In this document: positions 43,036-64,000 of the stretch, in pieces | Layout: the number at the start of each line of letters is the position of its first letter | Numbering within the stretch: position 1 is the stretch's first letter | NCBI GenBank assembly: GCA_010094045.1 | Contig: ML986686.1 | Span: forward strand, 111,575 to 175,574 | DNA length: 64,000 bases | Source: Lojkania enalia | Lineage: Eukaryota; Ascomycota; Dothideomycetes; Pleosporales | Direction: 5' to 3' | The notes under the pieces: model-generated | Told to the model about the DNA's origin: nothing | What the model saw: the letters and a program-made list of their open reading frames with translations, nothing else | Database searches by the model: none | Position numbers and translations under genes: made by a program

Positions 43036-44598
43036 TCACTGTATGATGAAGCTCGCTAGTTGCTCCACCATTGCATACAAAGTAGCTTGGGGGTGTCCAC
43101 CGAGCGGGACCGGCACTACGCTCGCATCCGCAACCCGCAACCCATCCACGCCGAGTACCTTACCCTCTGCATCCACTACCTTCCCCATAGCGGCAGTACC
43201 ACCTGAGTGATGATGTTGCATCCCAGTGCGTTCAATACGCTCTCGTAAAACGTCATCGGAAACGTCAGAAGTCAATGGTGTAAGGCCGTCTAGACCTGGT
43301 CCTGAAGGAGGCGTTTCGGATTCGACGAGCTGCTTCATGCCCCCCGTATCGAGGATAGCCTTGAGAGTCTGACGAGCAGCATACATGAGGACTTGGCGAT
43401 CGGTATCTGTAGATAGATAATTCGGTCGAACTTTGGGGAGATCATTTGGAGAGGAGGAACTGATTGACACACTTCCTCGGGAGGTAGGTAGAAGAAGCAT
43501 AGTAGACGTTGCAATATGCGTCCCATCCACGGGAATTCCGGGAATACCGGGTGGCACATAGACCGTGAGCACCTCGAAAAGGTTGCGGCCCTGCAAATCA
43601 AGACTTGCTGCATCTTTACCGACCAAGTGCTGAGGCACTGTCTCGCTGGCGACCCAATCGTAGGGCATACCTTTGAAGAGAGAAGGATTAGTCCATCCAG
43701 GGCTCCCTAGGGCAAGGTTTTGGGACGGGTCGCGGAGACGGAAGGCTAGATAGACCGCAAAATGATCGAACAAATTTTCACCGACATACGGAGACGCATG
43801 CTTGAGGTCGATGCCATGATCTGATAGAACTTCTGGAGGTCCGATTCCGGATAGCATCAGTATCTGAGGAGTACGATATGCCCCGGAACACAAAATGACT
43901 TCTTTGTTCGCTTTTGCGACGCGCCCGTCAGTCAACTCTACCCCATTAGCCTTCACTCCGGTAAATGTCACTCTGTGGGCGCTTGTGTTCGTAAGCACAG
44001 TAACTCCATCGAGCGGATAGGCCGCATATGAGGGTTGGCGGAGACCATTACGCACGTTCTCCTTTAATTCGGAAAGACCAGTCATTGACCCACTCGATGT
44101 ATTTGCGGGCTTGACTCCCAGTTCGTTCCAGGCAGCTTCAACAGCATTTCGCAATGGGTATTTCCTTTCTGGATCTGAGGAGATATGTGCGGCCCCGAAA
44201 TGTCCATCCACTTTCTCAAGCCATGGCTTCATCCCTTTGTAACTCCATCTCTGATCGCCTATAATCTTTCCCCAGTCATCATAGTCTTTCGAATCGGCTG
44301 GTAGCCAACCTCCAAAATTTAGAATGCTGCCGCCCCCCAGCGTTTTACCGGCGTTTAGAGTATGCGTGCGGCCTGCGGTTTGAGTGACAGGATCGCTTTG
44401 GTATGCATAGTCCAGCTTTCCGCCCAGAAGTGAAAGGCCGGCCAAGATTGTGTCTGTTCCAGCTTCACCAGTTGGATCAGGTCCAGCTTCGAGGAGGATA
44501 ACGGATGGCTTTGAGGAGCTCTGGGCAATGCGAGAGGCCACGGCACAGCCGGTGAGCCCACCTCCAACAATGATGTAGTCTGCGCTCAGTGATGCCAT
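43036..44598 (-). CDS. GMC-family FAD oxidoreductase
   Basis: Complete intronless 520-aa enzyme of the glucose-methanol-choline family, which oxidises alcohols using FAD. The N-terminal dinucleotide fold is clear (DYIIVGGGLTGCAVASRI, then VILLEAGPD), followed by the GMC signature region TLGGGSILNFGGWLPADS and the second signature LCSGAYRTPQILMLSGIGPP. The C-terminal catalytic part has HHHSGGTAAMG and GGHPQATLYA, carrying the two active-site His positions of the family. There is no signal peptide, so it is probably cytosolic, unlike secreted aryl-alcohol oxidases. It is transcribed divergently from the methyltransferase gene, with about 280-380 bp between start codons. This placement suggests co-regulation as a tailoring enzyme of the RiPP cluster. 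The substrate is unknown. Confidence 0.93.
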   Translation of the reverse strand: MASLSADYIIVGGGLTGCAVASRIAQSSSKPSVILLEAGPDPTGEAGTDTILAGLSLLGGKLDYAYQSDPVTQTAGRTHTLNAGKTLGGGSILNFGGWLPADSKDYDDWGKIIGDQRWSYKGMKPWLEKVDGHFGAAHISSDPERKYPLRNAVEAAWNELGVKPANTSSGSMTGLSELKENVRNGLRQPSYAAYPLDGVTVLTNTSAHRVTFTGVKANGVELTDGRVAKANKEVILCSGAYRTPQILMLSGIGPPEVLSDHGIDLKHASPYVGENLFDHFAVYLAFRLRDPSQNLALGSPGWTNPSLFKGMPYDWVASETVPQHLVGKDAASLDLQGRNLFEVLTVYVPPGIPGIPVDGTHIATSTMLLLPTSRGSVSISSSSPNDLPKVRPNYLSTDTDRQVLMYAARQTLKAILDTGGMKQLVESETPPSGPGLDGLTPLTSDVSDDVLRERIERTGMQHHHSGGTAAMGKVVDAEGKVLGVDGLRVADASVVPVPLGGHPQATLYAMVEQLASFIIQ

Positions 44599-44975
44599 AT
44601 CCTGCTGGAATAATTTTAGGCTGCTGAAAATCTGAGGTTAAGCTATTTGGATGGAGTGGTTTTCTGAGGATTGGAGCTACGCCTCTTGCGTTGAGGGGGG
44701 CTGGGCAAGGTAATAATGAACGCCGCACCCGAGCCTTGGCACCTGCATATTTGGGTACGTTACACAGCAGGCGGCATCACCGTAGTTTCCGTGCGTCCTT
44801 CGGGTTATTTACCTACATGGCCTACTTGGCAACCGTTAAAGTCCGAATGTATTGAATCGATGCATATCTCTGCACGCCTTTGATTAATACTGTTATAGTC
44901 CAAGTGCCCCCGATTACGGCACCTCCTGGCCTTCTCCCCACGGTTCTGGTCATTCCCCAGTCCCTTTGTTTCACA
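44599..44975. promoter_or_regulatory. Divergent promoter, GMC oxidoreductase / methyltransferase
   Basis: The intergenic region between two divergently transcribed cluster genes, short enough to act as a shared promoter. No specific factor site is claimed. Confidence 0.5.
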
Positions 44976-46073
44976 ATGCTGATTCGCCCTGTTTTCTCTG
45001 CAGCGCCACAGCGTCGATCCTTATATGGCTGTGCTCGCAAACTGGTGCCCTTAAGAGTTAGTAGAAGGAATAGCATGACAGCCCCCAGACCCATGGCAGA
45101 TAGAAAGAATGACAGTGTATGGAAACTTCAAAATATCGAAACGGAGTATTGGCATGAATACATTGCCACTCGGCCAAAGTATGATGCCACTATTTTCGAC
45201 CCCATCTTCGATTATCACACTGCAAACGGAACCCCTTTCCACGACGTGATCGACATTGGCACCGGCGCTGGCTCGGCCCTTGGTCGATTGATCAATCGCT
45301 TCCCACACGTCACTGCGAGTGATAATGACACTCTGAGCCTCGGGTTTGCTCAAGAAAGGCATCGAGACGTGCCTGCTAACCGTCTCACTTGGACTCTATC
45401 CAAGGGTGAAGACCTCACGCAACATCATCCTCCTTCTTCCTTCGATATGGCAACATGCGCTTTGACTTTCCCTTTACTGGATACAGAGAAGGCACTCCGT
45501 TGCATGTTTACGCTTCTACGACCCGGTGGAACACTAGCAATTTGGTTCTATGGGCCACCCATTTTCACGGACCCTGCGCTTGCGGAAAAAGCGCAACCTG
45601 CATTATATGCCGCCGTGGACCATGCCTTCAAACCAGTAGTCAGTGGTGGTGACCCTCAACGCACAGCTAGCTGGAAACGTGCGGCCGACGGAATGGCAAG
45701 TTGGTTAGACTATATTCCATTCCAGAAGGATGACTGGCAGGATGTTCGCCGACACAAGTGGAACAATGCAAATGCTCGTCTAGCATTCTTTGGGCCTGCA
45801 GCTTGCGACTTCGACGTGGAGCCATTGAGCGCTGTGACCGGGCATGAAGCTGTCACAGAAGTGCAGGATCCGAGCTTTTGGAAGGTAGATTGGGATGTGG
45901 AAATGGTGAAGAGGTTTGTTATGGCCGTGTTTCCTAAACCGAAAGAAATGGTAGGTACGGATGCCGTTATGGAAGGATATTTTGAGAAGTTACGGGACAT
46001 AATGGGTGGACCAGGCAAGAAGACGACTATGTCCTGGCCTGCAGTCCTGATATTGGCGCAGAGGAGTGGTTAA
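44976..46073 (+). CDS. SAM-dependent methyltransferase (class I, trans-aconitate-type)
   Basis: Class I methyltransferase, apparently intronless. The Rossmann motif I is VIDIGTGAGSALGRL, followed by the acidic ribose-binding position in TASDNDTL, motif II around SFDMATCALTFPLLD, and LRPGGTLAIWFYG (motif III). The DSVWKLQNIETEYWHEYIATRPKY start resembles fungal trans-aconitate-like methyltransferases. The start is uncertain. ATG 44976 (A at -3) adds an Arg-rich, acid-free leader (MLIRPVFSAAPQRRS...) that could be a mitochondrial signal. ATG 45075 or 45093 starts directly before the conserved domain. The frame stays open further 5'. In the cluster it would O- or N-methylate the peptide or a carboxylate, an inference from context only. 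It converges with the SDR gene, 120 bp apart. Confidence 0.88.
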   Translation: MLIRPVFSAAPQRRSLYGCARKLVPLRVSRRNSMTAPRPMADRKNDSVWKLQNIETEYWHEYIATRPKYDATIFDPIFDYHTANGTPFHDVIDIGTGAGSALGRLINRFPHVTASDNDTLSLGFAQERHRDVPANRLTWTLSKGEDLTQHHPPSSFDMATCALTFPLLDTEKALRCMFTLLRPGGTLAIWFYGPPIFTDPALAEKAQPALYAAVDHAFKPVVSGGDPQRTASWKRAADGMASWLDYIPFQKDDWQDVRRHKWNNANARLAFFGPAACDFDVEPLSAVTGHEAVTEVQDPSFWKVDWDVEMVKRFVMAVFPKPKEMVGTDAVMEGYFEKLRDIMGGPGKKTTMSWPAVLILAQRSG

Positions 46074-46193
46074 TGGGGTAGCTCATTTCAATTATTGCCA
46101 TTTATTAGGCTTCTGAGCATTTAATCCTATATTTCCTATGTTCCTCACTATACGGAACACATTCACACAAGATTGGTCTTACGCGTTGTCTTC

Positions 46194-47110
46194 TTACCAT
46201 TCAACTTCCCTTCGAGTCTCGTCAATGGAGACAAACTTGCCTCCTACCTTTTCACGGCTGGCTCCCTCTATCTGGCTTAGAACGAAGTTGCAGGAGTCTT
46301 CCACGGGAACGAATGCTTTTTCGAACCCAAAATGCCTTGCTCCTGAGTTTCCCATGTCTGTCTGCATAAATCTAGTGCAGTTCAGTAACTGTTCACCTAA
46401 GTTAATGGAGATATACTGCTCTCTTACCCAGGGTCAATGACAAAAGCAGTCAGGCTTGGGCTCTCGCAGTGAATCTTTCGCGTCATATAATGAGCCACGA
46501 CCTTGCTAGCGCCGTAAGCAAACATTGGCCAAGGCGCCTTTTCCATGGCCCCAATGCTTGCAATGGGCGTGCCGATGACAACGAATTTCCCCGCCCCGCC
46601 ACTCTCTAGAAGACTTCGGACGGCCTGGAAGAGCCGTAGTGGTCCTATAGAGAGGTGCTTAGTCCAAGTTCTATTCGGACACGAGGTTCTACTTGCCTAG
46701 GCCATTAACGTCAACTAGTTCCTTCACTTCGTCGGGTTTCACAGTAGTCAAGTCGCCGTAAATGTTAGATGATCCGGCATTTGCTATCACAACATCTAAT
46801 TTGGTGACTCCATGGTTGGTAGAGAGGGTGCTAACTGCCTCAATTGCGTCGGTATCCGATGTGGAATCGATCTTGACAACGATAAGCTTGCTGCTCTCAC
46901 CGCACGGCAAAGTAGCGAGGGAGCGACTGTTCGAGTCATTCAGATCGCGAACGCCGGCTATGACAGTGTTCGAAGGCTGTGAAAGGAGTGCAGTAGTCAA
47001 TGCTCTACCAAGGCCTAAACTCGCAATTGATTAGATGGTTTTATAATAAACATGGATTGAATATGGGTATCCTTGCCTCTGCTCGCGCCGCTAATTAGAT
47101 AGGTTGTCAT
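46194..47110 (-). CDS. Short-chain dehydrogenase/reductase with two GC-AG introns
   Basis: Complete 248-aa SDR built from four exons: 47110-47077, 47014-46697, 46644-46428 and 46371-46194. NAD(P) binding is shown by SGASRGLG (residues 7-14) and NAG (90-92). The catalytic Tyr161-x-x-x-Lys165 is in FAYGASK, with a Ser in the preceding TPIAS strand. The sequence resembles classical ketoreductases related to the norsolorinic-acid reductase type. The first two introns (47076-47015 and 46696-46645) use GC donors (GCAAGG and GCAAGT). The third (46427-46372) is a normal GT-AG intron. Only this model keeps the SDR core intact, since reading through gives immediate stops. It is divergent from the UstYa gene at 47752 and probably reduces or oxidises a carbonyl or alcohol on the RiPP product. 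Confidence 0.9.
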
Positions 47111-47751
47111 TTTGGGTGTGTTCGATAGCTGTCTTGCACTTGAAAAGAGGGTAGTCCGTGGAGGATTCAGCTTCTCAATAATACTTGTCTAAGTAAAGCC
47201 CGAGCAAGCGATGAATAGTTCAACACTTATTGGTATAGCATCGGCTTTCAATGGCTGTATTGACCCCGTAAAGGATATTATAAGGATTTTAGCGCCGGAG
47301 GTCGCTCTTACATAGGTACCGCTCTGCATAGGTCACACAGCGCCAAGACCTGGCGCTGCGCCCCAATCTCGATTCTTCCAATTACTAATCCATTGAGTGC
47401 ATGGTTACATCGTTTGTATTATCTGCCGCGAAGCATTCTCTAAACAGTGATGCAACTCAGCGACGCAATACGAGAGGTCCGTCGGAGACTTAGGTGACGA
47501 ATATATAGACTTGACGCAGGCTAATAAACTGGTACCACGCCGTTGGGCAAGACCTTCCTCATGCGGCCACTCTTACACAGGAGTAGATCATAGATTTTAC
47601 GGATAGTTTGCCGGTAAAGAGTGCCCAGGGCAACAGATCGGCATATCTTCCGCATGTACTTGATCTCGAATACAGATCTTGAGCACACTTAGTGAGCGAG
47701 GATACTCGGAGATAGGAGCTATACTAGATTTTGTCACACCTAGAGATCGAG
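47111..47751. promoter_or_regulatory. Divergent promoter, SDR / UstYa gene A
   Basis: 640 bp between the starts of the SDR and the first UstYa gene. Probably a bidirectional promoter. No open frame or repeat of note. Confidence 0.45.
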
Positions 47752-48731
47752 ATGCAGAAGACAAGCTATACGCATCTTTCCAATACTGAAGAGGGAGAGA
47801 GTCAAGATTTCGACGATTATCCTGAGATCTCTCCTAATGATCAGGCGAGAATCAGCATTCGCCATGCTGTTATTTACCTTCTGCTTGGCCTTTCCGACAT
47901 CTTGTTCTTCAGTCTCTGGCTCATTTCGATCCGAAAAACAAACCAAGCTGCGGCAAGTTGCGCTAGACCGCAATTAATCTACTGTAAAGCACCCAAAAAC
48001 TGAGTAGTGAATATTTTTTTCCAATGAAAAGCTAATGGTTTAGCGCCTGCAACCGAAGCACTTCGCTATGAGAAGAAGCGTCTATGGCGGGACATCGACG
48101 GTCCAAATCCCTTCTCTGGGAGCCCGCGTCCAGAGCTAGATAAAGCGTGGCACGATATACTTGATCGTAAGCCCATCGCAAATGTTGTGAACGGCACAAA
48201 GAACTGAAATCCACCCAGCCATCACAATCAAGGTCACAGCAGATGAACTTTTCCAATTTGCTGAAGGAGATAGTTCTATTGCGCTGAAAGACGGTTCGGG
48301 ATATATTGCTGAAATGGGGGTATACCATGAACTCCACTGCGTTGTACGTCTGAGAATTGTCTCAAAATTGTGTCACTTTTGAGCTGATTGATCGCAAGAA
48401 ACGGATTCGTCGTTACATTCATTTGGAACATTATTATCCCAATATGACCGCTGAAGATCGAATTGTTGAAGACAAACATATAGGTACGTATTGGCTCTGG
48501 GTTTGAGTCAATGTTCGGAGGCTGATAATCAAAGATCACTGCTTGGAGTACTGGCGAGAGGCAGCAATGTGCCGTGGCGATGTTACGCTTGGTACATATT
48601 TTTGGCGAGAAGATGGTTTTCCGACCTCTCAAGTATATACAGATAACGAGTGCATTGATTGGCGTGCTTTAGATACGTGGGCACGGAAGCGAATGGTTGA
48701 CATGACGGATTACTCTATACTTGAGGGATAG
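47752..48731 (+). CDS. UstYa-family (DUF3328) oxidase A
   Basis: Complete 253-aa model in five exons: 47752-47983, 48044-48166, 48219-48343, 48399-48483 and 48535-48731. A single transmembrane helix (about residues 39-58) follows an acidic cytosolic N-terminus. The lumenal domain carries both family motifs: HELHC at 155-159, and HIDHC at 187-191 followed by LEYWREAAMC. These His residues are the proposed metal ligands of UstYa proteins, which form ether or other oxidative links in ustiloxin, asperipin and related peptides. Expected location is the membrane of the secretory pathway, with the catalytic domain facing the lumen where the precursor passes. The gene is tail-to-tail with UstYa gene B, only 60 bp apart. 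The upstream in-frame TTG at 47731 is not used; ATG 47752 is the start. Confidence 0.93.
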
Positions 48732-48791
48732 CCGACGAATATAGCACTTTTCTATGTGCAAGCTAAACTAGGCTCTGAATAGTAGACAAAT

Positions 48792-49608
48792 TCAAGTAAC
48801 TATTCCCATATCCGAAGAATTCGCCCATCGCTCTGCAAAGTCCTTAATCAATGTATAGTTCCGACAAATCTTTGTCTGGTTCCATCCGTTAGTAGTATGG
48901 GTCTCGGGATTTAGAACCTCAAGATTGGTATCCGCGGCGCACATGAGAGTTTGCCTGAGATAATCAAAGCAATGCCGAACATGAAAAGGCGCTGTGCGTG
49001 TACCTGTTTCGGCGTCAAAATCAGGTATGTCGGCCATCTCCATTGGTTGGCTGGAGAGGGCATCATAGTAAGCCACAACGATGGCATGCTTGTGGAATGT
49101 AAGCGTAGAATTGGGTATTAAGGGGTGCAGGGGCACCTACCAGACAGTGAAGTTGGTGAAATACAGCAATGTTAGATATAAAGGGTGCTAATTGGGGGTG
49201 GTGGATGAAGCCTCGTCCAACGGGGATGATAGAGCTCCAGGCCGCTTCTGATTCAGAATCTGGCTTCTGGGTGAAGGTGAAGTTGTGGTGCCAACTAGTT
49301 CGAACAGAACCTGGTGGTGCTGGCAGCTCTGTCAATGTTATTCTTCTCGAAATTCATACGTCATTACCTGGAAGACCATAGTTAACACTGCCACCCTTCT
49401 GGTGGTGTCCGAGTAGGTATCCGGCGGCTACCCCAGCAGTGATCGAGCAGGCGATCAAAGTCCAATGAATAAAGATATTCCGCTGCTTTCGTGGCGTTCT
49501 GCGTTTCTCAGTGGGCTCAGAGATGGGTAGAAGCGTCTCGTTCTCCTCGGCTTTTTGCATTTCTTTGGGCTCCATGCCTTCAGTGGGGAGTATAGGACTC
49601 AGAACCAA
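48792..49608 (-). CDS. UstYa-family (DUF3328) oxidase B
   Basis: A second, divergent UstYa-family protein, 238 aa, exons 49608-49368, 49319-49141 and 49088-48792. The Lys/Arg-rich N-terminal tail precedes a transmembrane helix (residues 45-67). Then comes WHHNFTFTQKPDSESEAAWS, HQLHC at 135-139 and HVRHC at 176-180 followed by FDYLRQTLMCAADT, the two hallmark motifs. The first intron can end at two AG sites, giving 48 bp (used here) or 39 bp; both keep the frame and differ by three residues. It shares little with protein A outside the motifs, so it is likely a different activity, comparable to the UstYa/UstYb pair. It is transcribed away from the precursor gene at 50195 and probably shares its promoter. 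An internal Met at residue 12 is an alternative start. Confidence 0.92.
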
Positions 49609-50194
49609 ATCTTGTTATCCGGGCTCACACTGCTTCCATTGGAAGTTCAAATTCGAGAGTACGGAGAAATGCAGAATTCAGTATAGCTGGTTTTCGGAAA
49701 GAATTCGTAGGATAAGCCAGTCTAGACTCTCCAGGTATCCGATGTCGCGCGAGACTGTCACTCTCTCATTCCAGGGTGCGAAGATAATTCGGGTGTGAAT
49801 ATATTGAATGGATTCAATAAATCGTATACTTTATCAAGAGAGATATGTCACTCCTGCATAACGGACATGAGATGTGTAGTCCTTGTCGGAGTTCGTCGGT
49901 GTAGCATGGCTTGTTCTGTTCTGGACCGTCATACCCGAGCAAACCATCTCATCACACTTTCTTGTCACTCGCATGGGTTTCCCGATATTAAATTGATTTT
50001 TGGCTCATATTAATGAGATGCAAGCGGCATCGCCGACTGAAGCACTACGGACTTGACTACCTTCTGAGCCAAACCTCTGGCATTCAGGCATATAGAGCAT
50101 CTGGGCCCACCCTGAGATTCCAGGAAAAAAGCTATCTCTCTTGTCTAGAATCTCCATTTGGTTACCGCAATACACGATCCTAGCTCGTCCAAAA
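49609..50194. promoter_or_regulatory. Divergent promoter, UstYa gene B / RiPP precursor
   Basis: 586 bp between the UstYa-B and precursor start codons, in divergent orientation, so the maker and its substrate are probably co-induced from here. Short frames in the region carry no motif. No specific binding site is claimed. Confidence 0.5.
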
Positions 50195-50618
50195 ATGCGT
50201 TGGATTTACGTTACCCTTTTCATGGGCGCAGCCCTCGCTCGCCCACTCAACGAAGGTATGGCATTCCACCCCACTACTCGACACAGACGACACGACCGCT
50301 GACCCTATAGTTTCCAACAAAGGACTCATGGAGATGCGCGCAGCTGATGCCGATGACCAGGTCCGCAACTCTTGGTCAGCTCGTAGTGGAGTTGTGCCCA
50401 AGGATGCAGATGATGAGGTCCGCAATTCGTGGTCAGCTCGTAGTGGGATTGTGCCTAAGGATGCGGATGATGACGTACGCAACTCTTGGTCAGCCAAGCC
50501 GAGAGATGCAGACGATCAGGTGCGCAACTCATGGTCTGCGAGGACAGCCGCTGCTGAGGCGGGAGCGGAGGCAGATGCCGATGAAATGGTTCGCAATAGC
50601 TGGTCAGCAAGGGGCTGA
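50195..50618 (+). CDS. RiPP precursor peptide with five NSWSA repeats (dikaritin-like)
   Basis: A 122-aa secreted precursor in two exons, 50195-50255 and 50311-50618, with a 55-bp intron (GTATGG...CTATAG). A signal peptide (MRWIYVTLFMGAALA) is followed by a short leader and five imperfect repeats. NSWSA is invariant at residues 40-44, 59-63, 78-82, 93-97 and 116-120. It is always preceded by Val-Arg and followed by Arg or Lys. A DAD(D/E)-x-Val-Arg spacer comes before each core, and SG(V/I)VPK, PR or an Ala/Glu-rich stretch links the units. This is the layout of UstA/PhomA-type precursors: signal, spacer, repeated cores and protease sites. There is no KR, RR or KK anywhere, so release must use single basic (VR, AR, PK, PR) sites. 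Trp is the only aromatic in the core and the likely site of UstYa-type oxidation. UstYa genes lie immediately upstream. Confidence 0.88.
50346..50615 (+). repeat. Core-peptide repeat array inside the RiPP precursor
   Basis: Five in-frame repeats of 45-69 bp. Core codons for NSWSA lie at 50367-50381, 50424-50438, 50481-50495, 50526-50540 and 50595-50609. The first two spacings are exactly 57 bp; the third is 45 bp and the fourth 69 bp. Substitutions concentrate in the linkers and at the residue before Val-Arg (Gln, Glu, Asp, Gln, Met), whereas the core protein sequence never changes, indicating purifying selection on the core. Confidence 0.85.
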
Positions 50619-51540
50619 ATAATCCCGCGCATATTCCAGCCGCAGCACGCTAGAGGGCGGCTCGGCTCGGCGCGAGTCTTTGGATAGCGCCGGAGTAGTG
50701 TAGTGCAGGGGACTGTTAGTGGCGGCGCTTACGTACCCAAATACATACACTCTTTATGTACATTTTTCTCAACACATCCAATCGCGATCAGGAAGACAAA
50801 TAATTGTGTAACAAACGTTTATTTTTTTCTTAGCAATTCATCCCAACTCGTGCATTCAGCTCACCAAACTGACCAGGTATTTCACCGGGGCCCGCTCACC
50901 ACACCCATTGCATCGCATTCAGTTAGGTCGCCCAAGCTATGCATAACTGTGTCCGTCCCAGCTAGCCGCAGGAGGCAGGTCGGGAAAATGGCTCGTGATA
51001 TGCAACTGAGCATGTCTTCGGGTCGTGTCGCAGCGCAAGTCCGAATCCTTCGGGTATATCATGGCCAATCATCCACCCGTGTGTAGGGATAATGCTTTCC
51101 CTATCTTCCCCTCACATTTTCTGGATGTAATGGCCCTTGTGCGAGTCCGGATCACGCCACGCTAGCTTCGTATTAATGTAAATGGAGCACTCGTGCGCCT
51201 TTGTAGCGATGGGAGCAATTAAACCCTTTAGGTAGGATAAAAACCGGGCGTGCGTCGGGATTGCTGACCCCAGCCAACTTGACGCAGGTATTGTCCTGAA
51301 CACCGAGGCTTTTTTTCAAATCTCCTTAGCCACCCCCGACAAAGGAATGCTGAACCCATGGTCCATGCTATTGATTCTATGGGGCCAATCGCCACACGTG
51401 TTTGATGTGTAACCCTTCATGTGGAAGGCAATCTGAAGTCCGTAGCCGCTGATGGTTGTCTCATGGTATATCAGGTCCCGAAAAGCGCCCCCAGACGGAG
51501 GACTTTACACCGCTCCATTGTTCATTCTTTGATATTCGCC
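50619..51540. other. Intergenic in the RiPP island
   Basis: Precursor 3' untranslated region followed by about 800 bp without a convincing gene. Frames at 50703-51086 (plus) and 51303-51112 (minus) have no motif. The last part is the promoter of the membrane-protein gene. Confidence 0.4.
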
Positions 51541-52945
51541 ATGGTTGCTATGAAGCAGGACTATAGCCAAGGCCTCATGATAGGCCTAGGCGTTACTTTT
51601 ATGTTGATTTCGTCTATTTTCGTCGGTCTGCGTGTGTTCGCAAAGCGATTGGGACGGCGAGGGATGGCTTGGGAAGACCATCTTTGCTTTGCCGCTTTGG
51701 TAGGTATAGCCTTGAAAACGCCGCGTCTGCGTTAGTACTGATACGAGGAAGGTGATTGCACTGGCCTGTTCCATACTCCAGGTTGTGGGTACGTCAAAAT
51801 ATAACGCCATAAGGTAAATCCTGCGCTAATGCAGCCACGTAGCCGCGATTCATGGAAGGCTGGGACAACACCAAATTGTGGACGAGAATGGAATGCCCGT
51901 CCTTGACGATCCGGAGTTCCTCGTCTATGAACGTGTTAGTTGCAAATATCTTGTGTGTAATTGTCTACCGTAGAGAGAACTCACCAACATCTAGACAAAG
52001 TTCGCCGTTAACATCCTCGCCGTTGTCGGCCTAGGCCTCATCAAAGCCTCCTTCCTCTTCTTCTACAAGAGCATTTTCAGTGTACGCTACTTTCGGTGGG
52101 CCGTGTACGCTATGTTATGCATCGTGGTCGGCTGGACCATCTCGTATGCATTCGCAAACCTCTTCACCTGTTGGCCCGTCACTGCTCTGATTGAGCCATT
52201 CTACGGAAACAAATGTATAAATGCCGTTCCAATGTGGCTTTCTGTCGTCTACACGGATATCATAGTTGACGTTGGTATATTGGTTATGCCAATCCCCATG
52301 GTTTTCAGGCTTCAACTGCCTTTAGCTCAGAAGCTAGGCGTCTTGGGGATGTTCTTCCTCGGTGCCTCGTAAGTCCATCAAAACTAGAACTATCTTTGCG
52401 ACAAGTCAGGCTTCACTAACGCCTACGCTCTAATCCAGTGTTTGTGCCATTAGTATCACACGTCTGATCGTTCTGACCAAGATCGCCGACGAGTTTATTC
52501 TCCATTACAACGATATGACTTGTGAGTTCTGTAGAAACTAATCTAGTAACTGCGCCCTGATACAGCCTTAGATTACACCTCACCTGTATTCTTCTGGACG
52601 AATATGGAGCTATCGTTAGCTGTTGTATCTGCATGTCTACCTACACTTAGGCCAATATGGACGTATTTCCGTCCATCAAAACCTTCAACAGCTCGCCTGT
52701 ATGGTAGCGCATCCTACGAGCTCAGTGGAGGTGGTAAACGGTCTGACAAGTTTCCGTCAGACCAGTACACGGAATTAGATGACATCGATGGCTCGGGAAT
52801 GGGCGTTGATACCACAATTCGTGCTGCGGAGTCGCGTGATGGAGGTAATAGGGAGATTGGACGTGATTCCACGGCTCAGGGCGCTGGAAAGGGAATAGTT
52901 GTTCATACCAGCGTTCAAACCAGCAGTACCGGGCAGCTATTGTAA
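51541..52945 (+). CDS. Seven-helix SAT4/rhodopsin-domain membrane protein
   Basis: Complete 374-aa model in six exons: 51541-51699, 51752-51788, 51843-51934, 51995-52368, 52439-52521 and 52566-52945. The start ATG is in good context (GCCATGG). Seven hydrophobic segments run from GLMIGLGVTFMLISSIFVGL to NMELSLAVVSACLPTLRP, with fungal family marks WEDHLCFAAL, LIKASFLFFYKSIF and FTCWPV. The C-terminal 100 residues are hydrophilic and Gly/Ser-rich. This is the large fungal 'rhodopsin domain' (SAT4-like) family, often present in secondary-metabolite clusters but of unknown function. It should not be read as a light-driven pump: no retinal Lys motif is evident. A role in sensing, transport or organising the pathway membrane is conceivable. 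Its position next to the precursor makes cluster membership plausible. Confidence 0.87.
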
Positions 52946-53326
52946 TGTACGGCTGACGAGTGAATAAGTTGCCGAGCTGTCTACCTGATAGACCATTGTA
53001 TGCGTAAACTTAGTACATGTAAACTAAATGTAACTGAATTGGCCCATTTTTCCTCATTCGTTTTCACGCGTCCGCAGCACAGATCGTTCTCCAGTCTTGC
53101 CGCCAATTAAGCCGCTTATTGGTGGCGTATCGGACTTGGTCCTTGCATGTTGTCACTTTCCAAAGTCAGGGCCACGTGCGCGGCGGACCTTATGCAATGC
53201 AGCCAAGCCAGCTGCCATGCGGCGAAGGTTCCCATCTGGCATGGATATGCGTCGTATAAAGTAGCTATGAGATCCCGAGCCGCTCCTATCTATCGTAGCT
53301 CTCGTCCTTCGCTCGCAATCTTCATC

Positions 53327-54871
53327 ATGAGGATTTTGCGCTGGTTTCTAGCCCTCACTCTCGCGGGCATCTTAAAGGCTGAAGATTTTACGTCTCAGCA
53401 GGTAGCATCAAAGGTGCAAAGCGATCTGACTCCAAAGTTATCCAAGGGATCTTTTATTACATTTAAGGAGCCTCCACGATGGAGTACCTTCAAAGCTCCA
53501 GATCCTGCCATTGTCGTTAATGTTAAAAGCGAATTTGATGTTGCGGCTACGGTACGTACTAAACTAAGCACCGTCAATCGAAATAAGGCCACGAGCTAAC
53601 ATAATTAAAAAGATTATGTTCTGCAACTTAATGAAAATTCCATTTCTCGCTCAAAATGGGGGAAATGGATGGGCAACGACATTTACAATGAACAATAACG
53701 GCGTCTTGATTAATCTTGCTGGACTTAACCAGGTAACGTTTAGCGCGGACAAAAAGCAGGCCACTATAGGAGCCGGAGCTCTAATTAATACGACTATACA
53801 TGCGGCGAATAATGCGGGGGCCCTAGTTGCGACGGGGAACTGTAACTGCGTTGGAACGCTTGGAGCTTATCTTGGCGGTGGTTACGGAAATTTGATGGGC
53901 CTCTTCGGTTTCGGCGTTGACAACATTATTTCTATGCGCGTTGCTACTGCCGATGGCAAACTCCAGACTGTTTCAGCTTCTTCAAACCCCGAATTGTTCT
54001 GGGCGATGCGAGGCGCGGGACCAAACTTCGGCATCGTGACTTCAGCAGTTGTCAAATCCAAACCAGCTACGCCAAACGAGCGATCAGCATGGACAGGCGC
54101 CCTCATATTTACGCCGGATAAATTGGAGCAGGTCGTCCAGGCTATCCAGGATCTTGATCTTAAACCCGAGATGAACGTCTTTCTGTACTTCATCTCTTCT
54201 GGTCCGCCCTCTAATGATCCAGTGGTACTTACTACTCCATTTCTTTACATGGGCGATGCGACTTCCGGAAGGGCTGCCTTCGCAAGCCTGTACGAAATTG
54301 GACCTATCGTTGATACAACTGCTGTCCTACCATACGACCAATGGAATACAGGCGGAGATGGGTTTTGCACACGTGGTCCACGAAAGCCATCTTTCGGCGT
54401 GGGAATTCAAAATATGATACCAGGAGACTGGCGTAAAGTTTGGGATCTATACACTGCATTTCAGAAGAAGCCAGGTGCCGAGGGAAGCGTTGTTCTTCTT
54501 GAAGCTTATTCTCTTACAAAAGCACGATCAATTTCAGATTCATCCGCTTCTTTCCCCCATCGCGGTGTAAATTTCAACGCCGTTGCGATCGCTTGGTATG
54601 AAGATCCTGCATATGACGGCGAGGCTCTGGCTTTTGGTAGTGCTGCAAGGGACATTTGGAGGAATAGTGACGGCTTGGCGGAAAACAGAACGTAAGTCGC
54701 ATATGACGAGAACTTTTCTTGTAATTTCTAACTTAGTGAAGGTATATCAACTTCGCGAATGGGGATGAAGACCTCTTGGTCGTGTATGGAAGTAGTCTTG
54801 CTCGATTGCGTACTATCAAAAAGCGGGTAGACCCTGGAAATAAATTTAATCAATGGTTCAATATTGTGTAA
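53327..54871 (+). CDS. Secreted BBE-type FAD-linked oxidase
   Basis: Complete 477-aa enzyme in three exons: 53327-53551, 53613-54691 and 54742-54871. A signal peptide (MRILRWFLALTLAGILKA) leads into a PCMH-type FAD domain and a C-terminal berberine-bridge-enzyme domain (ending with YINFANGDED and VDPGNKFNQWFN). In bicovalent family members, FAD is held by His in a GGHGW-like motif and by Cys in GxCxxVG. Here the His position is Asn93 (NGGNGW) while the Cys (Cys152 in GNCNCVG) is kept. The flavin is therefore likely attached only through Cys. Such enzymes perform two-electron oxidations in natural-product pathways. Secretion fits action on the exported peptide. The frame upstream of 53327 is open but lacks a signal peptide. 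Confidence 0.9.
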
Positions 54872-58077: not shown

Positions 58078-59169
58078 ATGTATATCTTGAGTGCCTTGTC
58101 CCTTCTAGTAGTTGCCGCAATAGTTACTTTCGGTACTTCCGCCACACAATTGCAAAGCGTCCACCCTGTGCGCAGAGCTACCACGTTTCAGAACCCTATT
58201 CTATGGGAGGATTATCCAGACCTTGACGTTTTTCGTGTGGGCGATGTCTTCTACTACTCATCTTCTACATTTGCCTTCTCACCAGGCGCCCCGGTACTGA
58301 AATCCTATGATCTTGTCAATTGGGTGCCTGTATCGCACAGCGTTCCAGGCCTAAATTTCGGCGGTAAATACAACCTCAACAGTGCCACGGACAGAGCATA
58401 CGTCAAAGGAATATGGGCGAGTACTTTACGACACCGACAATCGAACGACATGTTCTACTGGGTCGGCTGCGTCGAATCAAGCAAATCATACGTCTGGACG
58501 TCAGCCAACAGTGGCGCCAATAAGAATAACGGCGAGGTTTTTAACTGGAATTGGACCGCTCATGCACTATCAACAAGTGCTATTACGATAGTGGCCTGCT
58601 CATTGACGACGATGATACCATGTATGTGGCATATGGCAATACAAATATCCAAGTCGCGCAATTAAGCCAGGACGGCACAAGCGAGGTCAGGTCTCAATCG
58701 GTCTACAGGGGATCGAGTACAATCGAGGGCAGCAGACTGTATAAGATTAATGATGCCTACTATATTTTCGTTACGCGGCCCGCGAATGCGGAGTATGTGC
58801 TCAAATCTAAGAGTATCTGGGGTCCGTACGAGATGAGAATACTTGTTGATAGCATACCTGGACCACTACCCAACGCAGGATACAGCCACCAGGGTGGAGT
58901 CGTCAGCACAAAGGATGGAAAGTGGTATTATATAGCATTCATGGACTCTTATCCAGGCGGACGAATACCAGTCGCTGCCCCTCTAACTTGGACATTGGAT
59001 GGCTGGCCACAGCTCGTCAAGGATGGCAATGCTTGGGGAAAGACATATCCCATGCCGGTTCAAATGGACAAGACTGTACCTGCTCCAACACGCAATGATA
59101 GTTTTGTGGGGTCGGAGTTGAGCCATGAGTGGGAGTGGAACCACAACCCAGATAACGCCAGATGGAAAC
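58078..59169 (+). pseudogene. Glycoside hydrolase family 43, frameshifted and truncated
   Basis: A secreted GH43 (beta-xylosidase/arabinanase-type, five-bladed propeller). ATG 58078 starts a signal peptide (MYILSALSLLVVAAIVTFG), then FQNPILWEDYPDLDVF with the catalytic-base Asp region, DDDDTMYVAYG, and SSTIEGSRLYK with the likely acid Glu. The frame shifts by one base near 58561-58567: the first frame ends with NWNWTAH, and the second resumes with CTINKCYYDSGLLIDDDD. One missing base there would restore continuity. The gene then ends abruptly at 59169 in the start of the C-terminal domain (LSHEWEWNHNPDNARWK), exactly where a copia LTR begins. The few codons beyond are LTR sequence. With two lesions the gene is probably dead; the frameshift alone could be a sequencing error. 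Confidence 0.87.
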
Positions 59170-62100
59170 TGTCACGGTTATGGAAGGAGACGTCTGGTAG
59201 ACGTGCAGGTGAGAGCGACTGCTTGTAAAGCTATGGGAAGTTAGGACTGCACATTAAAAGGCAGGTTCTTTGAACTTGCATCAACACACACATATACACG
59301 GATATAGACACAGAATAATAGACCCTCTTTTACCCTTATAGTTATAAGCCCGGATTGCGACTAATAGCTTATATTATAACTAATTAGTATTTACGATTGG
59401 GATTAACGTTTAATTATACTATACGGAGCCGCTGACCTTACAATAACTATAGAGTTAGATCTAGCAGTTATCTAAGTAACAGTCGTCCTCGATTAAGTTA
59501 ATAACTAGTATAAGTAGCTATTTATTTAAAAGGATACTACTTAGAAAAACAACCTCTAGTAGTATATAAACCCTGCTATACCGGCAGCAGACCTACCTAC
59601 GTTAACAGTACAACCTAAACCTTAGCTTACCAACTATTATAATAGAGCGACTTCGATTTCTCAGCTGTTAGCTGCCGAACTAAAGCTTTATTAATAGGAG
59701 TATAAATAATAAAAGCGACGGGATATTAAGTTCGAATATTAGAAGAAAGTTCTTACTAACTTTAACTCCGAGATTAGTAAAATAATTACCTTAAAGTACC
59801 TTTACCTAATTAAAACTAAGAATATACTATATAATTAATTAATAACGTTTAAGAAGCACCTTATACCGTCTAATACTACCTGTTAGCAAGATCTTATTAT
59901 ACGATATAAGAACTTTTAGATACCGCTATAAGGTAAAAAGGTAGAGGAATAGTTATAATTATAGGTAGAAGTTATAAATATATATATTACTGTAAAGGTT
60001 TCTAAGATAATAGGTTTATAGGTATAGAAAAACTTCCTTATCGCCTGTAAAATAATCGATCCTAAATATAGTATATTAGGCCTATAAGCCTTAATTAACC
60101 TAAAGGAAGCTAGTAAGGCTATTCTATTAGTAGAAAACTACGTTAGTAAATTTACTATCTATCTTAAGTATATAAAACTAATATAGTTAGGACTTAGCTC
60201 TATAGCTGCAGAGCTTAATACTACGAAACTATAGTAGTAGTAGAAGAAAAAGAATAGTAATAAAGATAAGCTATAATATCTATATAGCCTAAAATACTTT
60301 TAGATAGATTATTAGCTGATTAATATTAATTACCTATAAAGACTAAAGGGTTATATAAATGCAACCAGTTAAAGGAAGCTTAATACTGCTCTTACTACTA
60401 ATTTAAGCTTAAAAGATAAGATTAAGAAAGCGCTTAATAATTAGTATACAAAACGATAAGATGTAGAAAGTATTACTATAGATAATAGTACCCCTCCTAC
60501 TAAGCTTATAGCTAATATAGTATAATATATGTACTAGGATAAGATTAAAGAGCTTTATACTCTATATAAAGATAAGCCTTATACTCTAGACGAAGATAAG
60601 CCTCACGCTCTAAATAAAGATAAGCCTCGCGTTCTATATAATGATAATAAACCTTACGTTCTATATAAGGAAGGAGAACGTCGCGATCTAGATAAGAATG
60701 CTAAGAAGTACTTAGTTTAGTTAGTTACTAATAATAGTATAAAGCTAGACGATCGACTATATATAGTAGTAAGTATAGAAGATAATATCAACAAGCTTAA
60801 TAATTAATAGATACTAGATCCTAGGTCTAATACCTATATAATTAATACTAAAGACTAGAAGGGATAGATAAGAGAATATAATACTACTATAACTAATTTT
60901 ATTAGTATAGATATAGAATATATTTAGATTACAGCCTAGGAAAGTATAAAACTAATAGCGAGAATACTAATAGATATATAACTATTAGTACTTACCTATA
61001 TTACCTATATATAAGGATTTATTACTAGCTTAATAGGCCTAGTATAATACTAGAGAATTAATATATACTTTAACTTTAGATAAGATCTTCTATATAGAAA
61101 TAATCTAGGAATAATTCTTACTTATCTTAACTATAATAGAGGATACTAGCTAGTAGATGCTAATACCTCTTATTGCCCGAAGCTTATAACGCTATTATCT
61201 TTTAGCTCTATCTATCGACCTTCTAAAGATCCTTAACTAGACTAGATTATTAATACTAGGATAGCTTATTAAATCTAGGCTTACCCTAGTAAGAAGGTAA
61301 TTAATAGTCTAATAATAAATATTAATAGACTTATTATTAAAGGTAATACTAAGAACTTTTATTATATCTATACGGAGATAAAGTTAATAAAGAAGATATC
61401 TTAAAGATAGTAGAAGGACTAAATAATAAAGCCCTTCTATTAAATTACTATTAACGTTATCCAACTTATATTATAAGGAGAAGCCTGTCTAACGGCAATT
61501 AATAGGCTAGATATATAGTTAATTAGTATATAAAATAGTATAAAGTATTAACTTTCTCTTACTAAACGAAGATATTCCTAAATTAATAGATAATCTAGAT
61601 AATATATAAGATATAGTATATTTTCAACTATAATATAATAGCTATTAGAGTAGATAAGGACTACGGATTTAGTATATTACTAAACGTTCTAGAAGATCTC
61701 TACTATAACCTTAGTATATAATATAAGCCGTAAGCTAAGTATATAGAAGAGTAGAATAGATTAGTAGAACGGGTAGTATTACGGACATCCTTATAGGAGC
61801 CCCCGTACTAGACCTAATTAAGATTTAGGACTCTATATAGCTAGAAGAATAAGGCTAATATAAGGTATATAATATACTTAGTAGCTTAGTTAACTAAGTA
61901 ACTAAGTATGCTTAGTAGCTTAGTTAATTAAGTAACTAAGTAAGAAGAATAATAAGGGAACTAAATTGTATTTAATAACCTTATAACTCTAATCTTTATA
62001 GCTCTTTATAGTTAACTTAAATATCCTTCGCATACTCTACTTATATACTTCTATTATAAGTCTATAAGAATAATACACCTTATAGCACGTGATTACTCTT

Positions 62101-64000
62101 AGTTATTATCCCTACCCTATACCTAGCTAATTAGAGGCTGTTATACTTTAACTACCCTCGTAAGACTAGAAGAAGTAAGACTAGTTAGACTACCCTAGTT
62201 ATAAGGAAAGAGATACCTTCGGTAAGTAACGTAGGAAACTCACGCAAGTAGAATGTCGGGATTAGCTAGTAAAGCTACCTCTTTAGAGGTAGGTATAATA
62301 ACTATATTTATAAGAATATAGAACAAATTAGTATAATAATAGGAATAATTAGTTCTAGTAGATAAATAGATAAGAAGCCTAAAAGAGACTTAGGACAGCC
62401 TTCTCGAAAGTCTTAAAGAAATATAAGAAATAGTTAATAGTAAATAAGGAATAGGGCTTATAGAAATTATCTAAAAACTTAAATAAGTTAAAAGAGTACT
62501 ACTAATAATATATTACTAATAATAAATTAAACTAGTACTACTCGATAAATTTAACAGAACTAGGTTTAAGCTTAAAAGATTCCTAGTAGTAGTAAAAATC
62601 TATATTAACGCTAACCTCGATATTATTTAATATAAGAATAAGAAAGTACTATTTATAAGAGTATACTTAATAGGTAAACTACTTAACTAGTTCTAGTCCT
62701 TTCTAATAGATTTTAAGAACTATACGGAGGAATACTAGAAGAGTAAAACTAAGGTAATATTTATAAGCCTAGTATACTTCTAATAGAAACTCGAATTAGC
62801 GTTTAGAGATATCGACGAAGTATAAGTAGTAGAAGATAGACTCTACAACCTAGTTTAACTAGGATCTATTACCTTATATATATCAAGCTTTTAATAACTC
62901 TTAAATAAAGTTGTCTAGAATAACTATAATATAATAGTAAAGTTCCGCAGAAGATTAAAAATAGAGATAAGAAGAGTAATAATATATATAGAGTAACTAT
63001 AGAACCTAGTATTATACTTTTAACTAGTAAAAAGAATCGATAATAAACTATACTAGTTTAAAAATAAGGAAAGGTAAGCGTACTACTAAAGGGTACGCTT
63101 TATAGTAAGAGCTGCCAACGCAGGCGGATCTATAGATCTAAGCGCTACTAGGGAAAAGAAGTCTAAACTACAGGCGACTTAAGAAAAGAAGATTTAGAAA
63201 AAAGATATTAAGTATTATAATTGTTAAAAACTAGAATATATAGTAAAGGAATATCGAAGTAAAAAGAAAGAAAAGAAAAACTAGCCTATAGAAGACAAAC
63301 CGCAAGAAGCAGGTAAAGAAAAACTAGCTACAACTATAGAATATAGAACCTTATATTAGTCCTTCTATAACGAAGACGAGTATTAAATATACTAACAACT
63401 TAAAGAAGCTATAGGATATTAGCCTTAAAAGAAAATATAACTTATAGTAACGCAGGAATATATAAAAAGATAGCTAGAAGAAATTTAGGAAATATTAGAT
63501 AAGGATAAAGAAATAAATACCCTTGTTATAAATAGAAGAAGCTACTATTAGAGTACTAATACTTAAACTAGCACCTAGAGTATATTCTATATACCGATAA
63601 GGAATAATTAAGTATAAATAGGAAATGCCGGCTCTTATAGCTACTCTATAAAAGGAACTACCTATAAGGTTCTATAACAAAAATAGACTAGGATAGGATA
63701 TTATTAATGTTTATAAGGAATGGTAAAATACCTATCCTAGAGAAGTCCGCTTCTTATACTTCCAAAAATGGATAGAAACGACGAAAGTAGTAGAAGAATA
63801 TCTTAATATAATAGATTGGGATAAGGCTGTATATATAGTACGGAAAGTAGTAGCCTTCTTACAAAACGAAGTGCTAGTAAAATACTAGATACTAAAGGTA
63901 TCATGATATAAATAAGAATAGGACTACTAGATTAGAGAAGATAATAACCCTCGTATAAACTAATACCACCTAGTATATTTTAAGATAGTATAGATATCGT
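59170..64000 (+). mobile_element. Ty1/copia retrotransposon inserted in GH43, runs off window
   Basis: The 5' LTR 59170-59340 starts TGTCACGGTTATGG and is the same family as the LTRs of the copia at 15827-21173, but nearly free of RIP. The 5-bp target on the left is GAAAC (59165-59169); the right copy is outside the window. After the LTR, gag-pol lies on the plus strand: a gag start region near 59650, a protease remnant ILDPRSNTYIINTKD near 60826, and an integrase-like remnant (RVDKDYGF) near 61650. The body is full of RIP stops. Around 61777 it is interrupted by a second LTR element, so its reverse transcriptase is not seen here. Confidence 0.87.
61777..64000 (+). mobile_element. Second gypsy-like retrotransposon nested in the copia, partial
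   Basis: The copia integrase homology stops at about 61776, and a new LTR-like sequence starts TATTACGGACATCC (TG to TA by RIP). It contains a tandem repeat of about 34 bp built on CTTAGTAGCTTAGTTAA-type sequence (61865-61950). A gag region follows, with a decayed zinc knuckle at 63210-63260 (KYYNC*KLEYIVKEYRS). That pattern fits CCHC with Cys and His turned to Tyr. The exact LTR end and the right end are not visible. Assignment to gypsy rests on the gag pattern only. Confidence 0.6.

Follow-up and report, generated by a model that had tools for sequence, protein, structure and literature searches.

Organization of the locus

We examined 64,000 nucleotides of the genome of the fungus Lojkania enalia (Pleosporales, Dothideomycetes), hereafter the window, which covers positions 111575-175574 of its contig in an assembly of 58.1 Mb and whose end coincides with the end of that contig (175,574 bases). 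A first-pass annotation had proposed that an eight-gene locus in this window makes a dikaritin-like ribosomally synthesized and post-translationally modified peptide (RiPP), with a repeat precursor associated with UstYa-family proteins. Both UstYa genes and the five-unit precursor are confirmed, and exon models built from the DNA, together with Pfam searches, place all eight genes at the expected coordinates. The three genes that carry the argument are listed here in window positions.

47752-48731, + strand: UstYa-A; 5 exons (47752-47983, 48044-48166, 48219-48343, 48399-48483, 48535-48731; corrected model), 253 amino acids, PF11807, HELHC and HIDHC motifs
48792-49575, - strand: UstYa-B; 3 exons (49575-49368, 49319-49141, 49088-48792; corrected model), 227 amino acids, PF11807, HQLHC and HVRHC motifs
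50195-50618, + strand: precursor gene; 2 exons (50195-50255, 50311-50618), 122 amino acids

A repeat precursor under selection

The start of the precursor resembles a signal peptide, as judged by inspection and by comparison with its homologues, and the protein carries five DAD[D/E]xVRNSWSA units, each followed by a single Arg or Lys. The description of a repeat-containing precursor with NSWSA in its repeats stands. Tyr and Phe are absent from all five units. The hexapeptide RNSWSA is identical in every unit, while its codons vary: Asn is encoded by AAC or AAT, the first Ser by TCT, TCG, TCA or AGC, and Ala by GCT, GCC, GCG or GCA. Over the 12-codon unit, the proportion of synonymous differences (pS) is 0.69, versus 0.10 for nonsynonymous differences (pN). 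Identical hexapeptides spelled with such varied synonymous codons point to selection on the peptide rather than to chance.

A DNA pattern for the repeat has four exact matches in the assembly, all inside the precursor gene, and a reversed-pattern control has none; the fifth unit reads DADE and hence falls outside the search pattern. A second precursor elsewhere in the genome was considered and set aside, because, apart from the two exons of the gene, a protein search matched only the antisense strand of that gene and, weakly (E 1.47), one other sequence. No database entry for the gene from Lojkania is among the listed matches of our one-sequence search.

Conservation of the unit across fungi

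Homologues of the precursor number 14 at E ≤ 1 in the one-sequence search and 37 at E ≤ 10 in a profile search, 34 of the latter at E ≤ 1e-3. All 37 are kept in the counts below, including the weak three (P0035, P0036, and P0037), and the Lojkania protein is added as a 38th row. They span five classes: Dothideomycetes, Sordariomycetes, Leotiomycetes, Eurotiomycetes, and Lecanoromycetes. Hosts whose lineage was looked up are Bimuria and Massariosphaeria (Dothideomycetes), Xylaria (Sordariomycetes), Hymenoscyphus (Leotiomycetes), Penicillium (Eurotiomycetes), and Icmadophila (Lecanoromycetes); further hosts are Nemania, Hypoxylon, Truncatella, Aspergillus, Stictis, Squamulea, and Kalmusia.

Across these homologues the unit reads D-A-D-[DE]-x-V-[R/H/K]-N-S-W-S-[A/E/Q]. 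When units are chosen from the 38 precursors by the upstream acidic motif alone, NSWS[A/E/Q] follows in 88 of 93 (NSWSA in 71, NSWSE in 15, and NSWSQ in 2), a conservation measured within the reach of searches that themselves used the family's motif. The five exceptions are SSWSA, NSSSA, KSWSA, and the NTWHE and NVWAE of Kalmusia. The DADD-x-V stretch upstream is conserved about as well as NSWSA. Among 90 strict 12-mers, Tyr occurs in none and Phe in 4.

The Kalmusia precursor (P0036, from Kalmusia sp. IMI 367209) is a weak relative (E 0.67) with the diverged units DADDLVANTWHE and DADELVPNVWAE, in which Asn-x-Trp is kept. The same fungus also has a UstYa-A orthologue, on a contig that differs in length from that of its precursor.

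The UstYa pair

The two neighboring proteins are UstYa-family members, as first proposed: PF11807 is found in UstYa-A (E 2.1e-47) and in UstYa-B (E 1.5e-22), and each has two HxxHC motifs, at 155 and 187 in UstYa-A and at 124 and 165 in UstYa-B. The Pfam scan and the protein search used first models of 244 and 230 amino acids, respectively, which were later corrected against orthologues. The corrected UstYa-A is letter for letter the NCBI protein CC78DRAFT_501936 (P0038), and NCBI has UstYa-B in a shortened version (CC78DRAFT_30361, P0046).

In an AlphaFold2 model of UstYa-A (monomer without metal; mean predicted local distance difference test score, pLDDT, 81.5), a long N-terminal helix (28-67) is followed by a domain in which the first HxxHC (155-159) lies in helix 152-167 and the second (187-191) in helix 178-202. 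The cyclochlorotine hydroxylase CctR, a DUF3328 protein, is a membrane-associated two-copper enzyme whose HxxHC motifs sit on neighboring helices in a predicted model (PMC12435403; articles cited by PMC number are drawn on in part throughout). As modeled, UstYa-A would share with CctR the double HxxHC and a membrane helix followed by a helical lumen domain. CctR differs in that it acts on a non-ribosomal peptide.

Compared with eight UstYa loci fetched from its own genome, UstYa-A shows 23-40% identity to seven of them in partial alignments, and its first model shares 45-67% with the eight A-type proteins on precursor-matched contigs of other fungi. Across the Lojkania genome, 25 UstYa exon matches are listed, on 15 contigs, with three inside the window, so the genome has many UstYa loci besides this one.

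Precursor and UstYa genes occur together

Our UstYa search gave 346 matches at E ≤ 1e-5, and the analysis covers the 120 that were listed. These sort cleanly into 76 nearer to UstYa-A (44-100% identity) and 44 nearer to UstYa-B (43-95%), with a smallest margin of 104 bits. Among them, 15 contigs (told apart by size, and including that of Lojkania) hold one A and one B, and none holds two alike. For 13 of the 37 precursors (13 of the 27 on contigs of at least 10 kb), a listed A or B protein comes from an equally long contig. Both A and B are matched in four cases (Xylaria grammica, X. longipes, Penicillium chermesinum, and Aspergillus caelatus), A only in four, and B only in five. Every one of the five classes contributes at least one such precursor. 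Locus tags are consecutive in P. chermesinum (precursor 926, B 927, A 928), and also in Nemania, X. grammica, Hymenoscyphus albidus, Squamulea, and Icmadophila. Because A, B, or both are found on same-length contigs for 13 of 37 precursors, we regard the precursor and the UstYa pair as a conserved core. Syntenic relatives were absent from IMG/VR contigs searched with the precursor profile and from GTDB genomes searched with the UstYa pair.

In Stictis urceolatum, one annotated protein (P0015) fuses a piece of UstYa-A to a four-unit precursor. It is likely a merged model of two neighboring genes, so the precursor and UstYa-A are probably adjacent there.

We also built a tree from 52 A-type proteins out of the 76 (quick method, midpoint root). 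In it, the closest partners of the Lojkania protein are two other Dothideomycetes (support 95), and this group falls within a set of 15 rows that includes 12 Sordariomycetes (support 99). A separate 14-row clade contains no protein from a precursor-matched contig. The classes are partly mixed, with 12 changes against a minimum of 4.

This co-occurrence bears on a different explanation, in which the precursor yields a linear signaling or mating-type peptide and the neighboring UstYa genes act on something else. The layout does resemble that of alpha-factor, with a signal-peptide-like start, acidic XA-rich spacers, and Trp-bearing repeats, and a core that varies so little among five classes would suit a signal or a fixed target better than a toxin that changes fast. 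On the other side, precursor and UstYa genes are found together across classes, several with consecutive tags. Unlike ascomycete alpha-pheromone precursors, this one has two adjacent UstYa genes and a unit that does not resemble the cores quoted in PMC6339444. No Pfam family, of pheromones or otherwise, matches the Lojkania precursor at E ≤ 0.01 (no other pheromone profile was run). We consider a linear signaling or mating-type peptide improbable.

Predicted cleavage and released unit

Among the 90 strict units, 55 are followed by a single Arg or Lys, 20 by a dibasic pair, 14 by a stop codon (in some cases perhaps where an incomplete gene model ends), and 1 by another residue. Sorted by precursor, 22 of the 38 are monobasic (Lojkania included), 11 are dibasic (11 of the 37 relatives), none is mixed, and 5 are left unclassed by the rule used (P0027 and P0034-P0037; in P0034, KR follows the KSWSA unit). 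The unit of P. chermesinum is bounded by dibasic sites as KR-ADADDMVRNSWSE-KR, and its last unit ends at the stop codon; thus, the residue after SWS is taken as the C-terminus of the unit. At the other end, Lys or Arg is found within five residues before DADD in 68 of 90 units. Acidic and small residues are over-represented at P1' and P2', and less so at P4', of cleaved Kex2 sites (PMC2515848), a preference that fits a cut just before DADD. A reference title in the same article calls a yapsin monobasic-specific.

The first-pass annotation took NSWSA to be a pentapeptide released when the precursor is cut after the Arg in front of it. In Lojkania alone this would be an attractive reading, as all five units read R-NSWSA-R/K, and the repeats of ustiloxin and phomopsin likewise have an acidic pair before the core (EDYXI motif, PMC6339444). 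Across the family, of 92 units chosen by the letters SWS, 60 have Arg before Asn, 21 have His, and 11 have Lys. Because this residue can be His, R|NSWSA|R was rejected as the cutting rule of the family. The position is always basic and looks like part of the recognized or released unit, and the upstream DADD-x-V is about as well conserved as the pentapeptide itself. Cutting at Arg on both sides to yield NSWSA is thus unlikely. Judged from these sequences, the released unit is likely the full 12-mer or a shorter fragment with NSWSA at its end.

A predicted pathway

The locus is a real, selected, and widely conserved one of the UstYa RiPP type. We think it probable that it works as a dikaritin-like system, in which the repeats would release a Trp-containing 12-mer or its C-terminal piece and the UstYa pair would oxidize or cross-link the invariant Trp. 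In this scheme, the precursor would enter the endoplasmic reticulum and Golgi, and two cuts would release each repeat, one at the basic residue that follows NSWSA and the other either at DADD or somewhere upstream of it. One group of relatives would use dibasic Kex2 sites, while Lojkania and many others would be cut at a single Arg or Lys, presumably by a Kex2-like or yapsin-type protease. Carboxy- and aminopeptidases would then trim the cut ends. Membrane-bound and facing the lumen, UstYa-A and UstYa-B would oxidize the unit through a two-copper site. As the only aromatic residue that is nearly invariant in the unit, Trp is predicted to be the site of modification, in the place that Tyr or Phe takes in known dikaritins; the modification could be a cross-link, a hydroxylation, or a desaturation.

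A wider formulation has, in our view, nearly an even chance of holding: a RiPP found throughout the Pezizomycotina, with a near-fixed 12-mer, a dedicated pair of UstYa enzymes with two coppers that act on Trp and not on Tyr, and release by a monobasic, nonclassical route in Lojkania, the Xylariales, and others. That the unit is near-fixed over five classes would suggest one conserved target or signal rather than a lineage-specific toxin.

Several observations weigh against this pathway. The first concerns cleavage: the Lojkania precursor has no KR, RR, KK, or RK site, contrary to the KR-type punctuation first ascribed to it, and only 11 of 90 units have Lys or Arg immediately in front of DADD, making the N-terminal boundary less sure. 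The second concerns linkage, which was read from contigs of equal size as a stand-in for viewing the contigs directly. The A. caelatus match (length 276908) is to UstYa clusters named A. pseudocaelatus, and in Hypoxylon argillaceum the precursor and the A/B pair have different longest contigs. For 24 of the 37 precursors there is no same-length contig among the listed UstYa matches; these include Truncatella, both Hypoxylon species, Kalmusia, Stictis (by length), metagenome records, and four of the five Aspergillus species (tubingensis, sergii, bertholletiae, and luchuensis). The third concerns the enzymes and their substrate. A UstYa-B model made on the Periconia orthologue (P0060) was too poor to use (pLDDT 58.0), and a Foldseek search of the UstYa-A model against solved structures gave nothing at E ≤ 0.001. 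In a survey of Kex2-processed repeat proteins (KEPs), the figure for Tyr is 65.6% in precursors with DUF3328 neighbors versus 38.2% in those without, and for Trp 20.5% versus 24.5% (PMC7329392); with Tyr but not Trp enriched near DUF3328, Trp would be an unusual substrate. Finally, the product, the modified residue, and the enzyme roles are predictions made from the genes.

Accessory genes and genomic setting

Five further genes lie in the island.

43036-44598, - strand: GMC oxidoreductase; single exon, 520 amino acids, Pfam GMC N and C domains
44976-46073, + strand: S-adenosylmethionine-dependent methyltransferase (Pfam); single exon, at most 365 amino acids, start possibly further in
46194-47110, - strand: short-chain dehydrogenase/reductase (SDR); 4 exons, 248 amino acids, adh_short
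51541-52945, + strand: SAT4-type membrane protein with a Fung_rhodopsin domain (Pfam); 6 exons, 374 amino acids
53327-54871, + strand: BBE/VAO-type FAD oxidase; 3 exons, 477 amino acids, signal-peptide-like start, FAD_binding_4 and BBE domains

Among PDB structures, the GMC protein is closest to oxidases or dehydrogenases of choline, alcohol, glucose, and formate. The nearest solved relative of the methyltransferase is trans-aconitate methyltransferase (E 8e-7), and that of the BBE protein is EncM (E 2.5e-28), with GGN in place of the EncM GGH in the alignment; we take the His of that GGH to be the flavin-linking residue. In the SDR model, two of the three introns (47015-47076 and 46645-46696, - strand) have GC-AG rather than GT-AG borders.

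Membership of the GMC, methyltransferase, SDR, SAT4, and BBE genes in the pathway is argued from their position. In Lojkania, the BBE, GMC, SDR, and methyltransferase proteins may tailor the product further, which is the least certain step of the scheme. It is also possible, though we lean against it, that the pathway consists of the precursor, UstYa-A, and UstYa-B only, and that the other five genes are unrelated neighbors. Conservation together is shown for these three genes only, the methyltransferase and GMC proteins are nearest to the enzymes named above, and no 8-mer is common to four of the five promoters. Weighing for a larger pathway are the tight spacing, the divergent pairs, the single island of normal GC content between AT-rich blocks, and the BBE protein, whose signal-peptide-like start and nearness to EncM suit peptide tailoring.

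The divergent pairs were first described as having shared promoters. Divergence is real in all three, with gaps of 377 bp (GMC/methyltransferase), 641 bp (SDR/UstYa-A), and 619 bp (UstYa-B/precursor) in the gene models, and the sharing is a matter of geometry only. Across the five promoter regions, no 8- or 9-mer was found in at least four; three 7-mers occur in four of five, against 0.42 expected from mononucleotide shuffles, which we judged uninformative.

The island has a GC content of 0.43-0.51 and is flanked on both sides by AT-rich blocks with high TpA/ApT, which we take to have the look of repeats mutated by repeat-induced point mutation. These blocks are TpA-rich, with a 2-kb mean GC of 0.20-0.29 at 16000-40000 and of 0.27-0.28 from 60000 to the window end at 64000. 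A GH43-type gene at 58080-59225 (+ strand) is short, is split over two reading frames with PF04616 in the second piece, and looks broken.

As first noted, there is no tyrosinase in view: none of the 25 listed genome matches to PF00264 is on this contig, which stops at the window end, so that a further part of the locus may lie elsewhere. Neither a transporter nor a peptidase is among the eight Pfam-scanned genes; the other open reading frames of the window were left unscanned save one GH43 piece, and here too the contig ends with the window.

Relation to known fungal peptides

Dikaritin precursors are Golgi-targeted, cut by Kex2, and cyclized by UstYa-type proteins (PMC9233826). A five-gene definition of dikaritins by Ding et al. 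included a tyrosinase, which was later dropped (as told in PMC12048977), and the consulted portions of PMC7329392 and PMC9233826 name the tyrosinase as required for ustiloxins and phomopsins only. The Lojkania locus has double-HxxHC UstYa/DUF3328 proteins, a leader-like start followed by repeats, and a methyltransferase domain. It lacks dibasic sites, a tyrosinase, a transporter or peptidase among its eight genes, and Tyr or Phe in its units. We call it dikaritin-like because it fits the newer definition, in which DUF3328 is the class-defining enzyme, and fails the older and narrower features.

Like ustiloxin and phomopsin loci, it has more than one UstYa/DUF3328 protein, a methyltransferase nearby, and a precursor in which short repeats follow a signal-peptide-like start. 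It departs from them in having Trp for Tyr, no dibasic sites, no tyrosinase match on the contig, and GMC, BBE, and SDR neighbors. With asperipin-2a and the epichloecyclins, it shares a repeat precursor next to UstYa-type enzymes, but their products are cross-linked through Tyr and their unit sequences differ. Victorin offers a parallel for a cross-link that does not start from Tyr (Phe-Leu, PMC9233826), but it is chlorinated and its core was given in the first-pass annotation as GLKLAF. KEPs are likewise secreted repeat precursors, and the relatives with dibasic sites after the unit resemble them further. The published KEP filter asks for at least three repeats between KR, KK, RK, or RR (PMC7329392), and the Lojkania precursor is thus excluded by it. 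Dibasic members of the family might be in the supplementary table of that survey.

The strings RNSWSE, RNSWSA, HNSWSA, KNSWSA, DADDLVR, and DADDMVR were not found in the open literature searched, supplementary tables being outside its scope, and further literature searches listed no article on the unit. The unit is missing from the conserved core list in the consulted part of PMC6339444, and NSW is absent from the part of the main text consulted of a lichen survey (PMC12048977), which describes lichen UstY genes but found no repeated precursors in either of its two clans. Novelty had been suggested for this peptide family. The core is indeed unlike the named cores and has no match in the open papers searched, but the family is shared over five classes rather than private to this fungus. 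Thus, the likely product of the locus is a modified peptide that many fungi share and that is undescribed in those papers.

Implications

Fungal repeat-precursor peptides are reported to be highly diverse in core sequence (PMC7329392). The unit described here, nearly unchanged between lichens and molds, is the opposite of that diversity, and makes a common chemistry testable. With one specified peptide substrate and two specified enzymes, the locus allows one to ask whether UstYa copper enzymes can modify Trp, and the monobasic/dibasic split among the 38 precursors is a natural test of the cutting protease. Some members of UstYa peptide families would escape rules that rely on dibasic Kex2 sites. 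Monobasic release, if true, explains why Kex2-based surveys would pass over such a peptide family.

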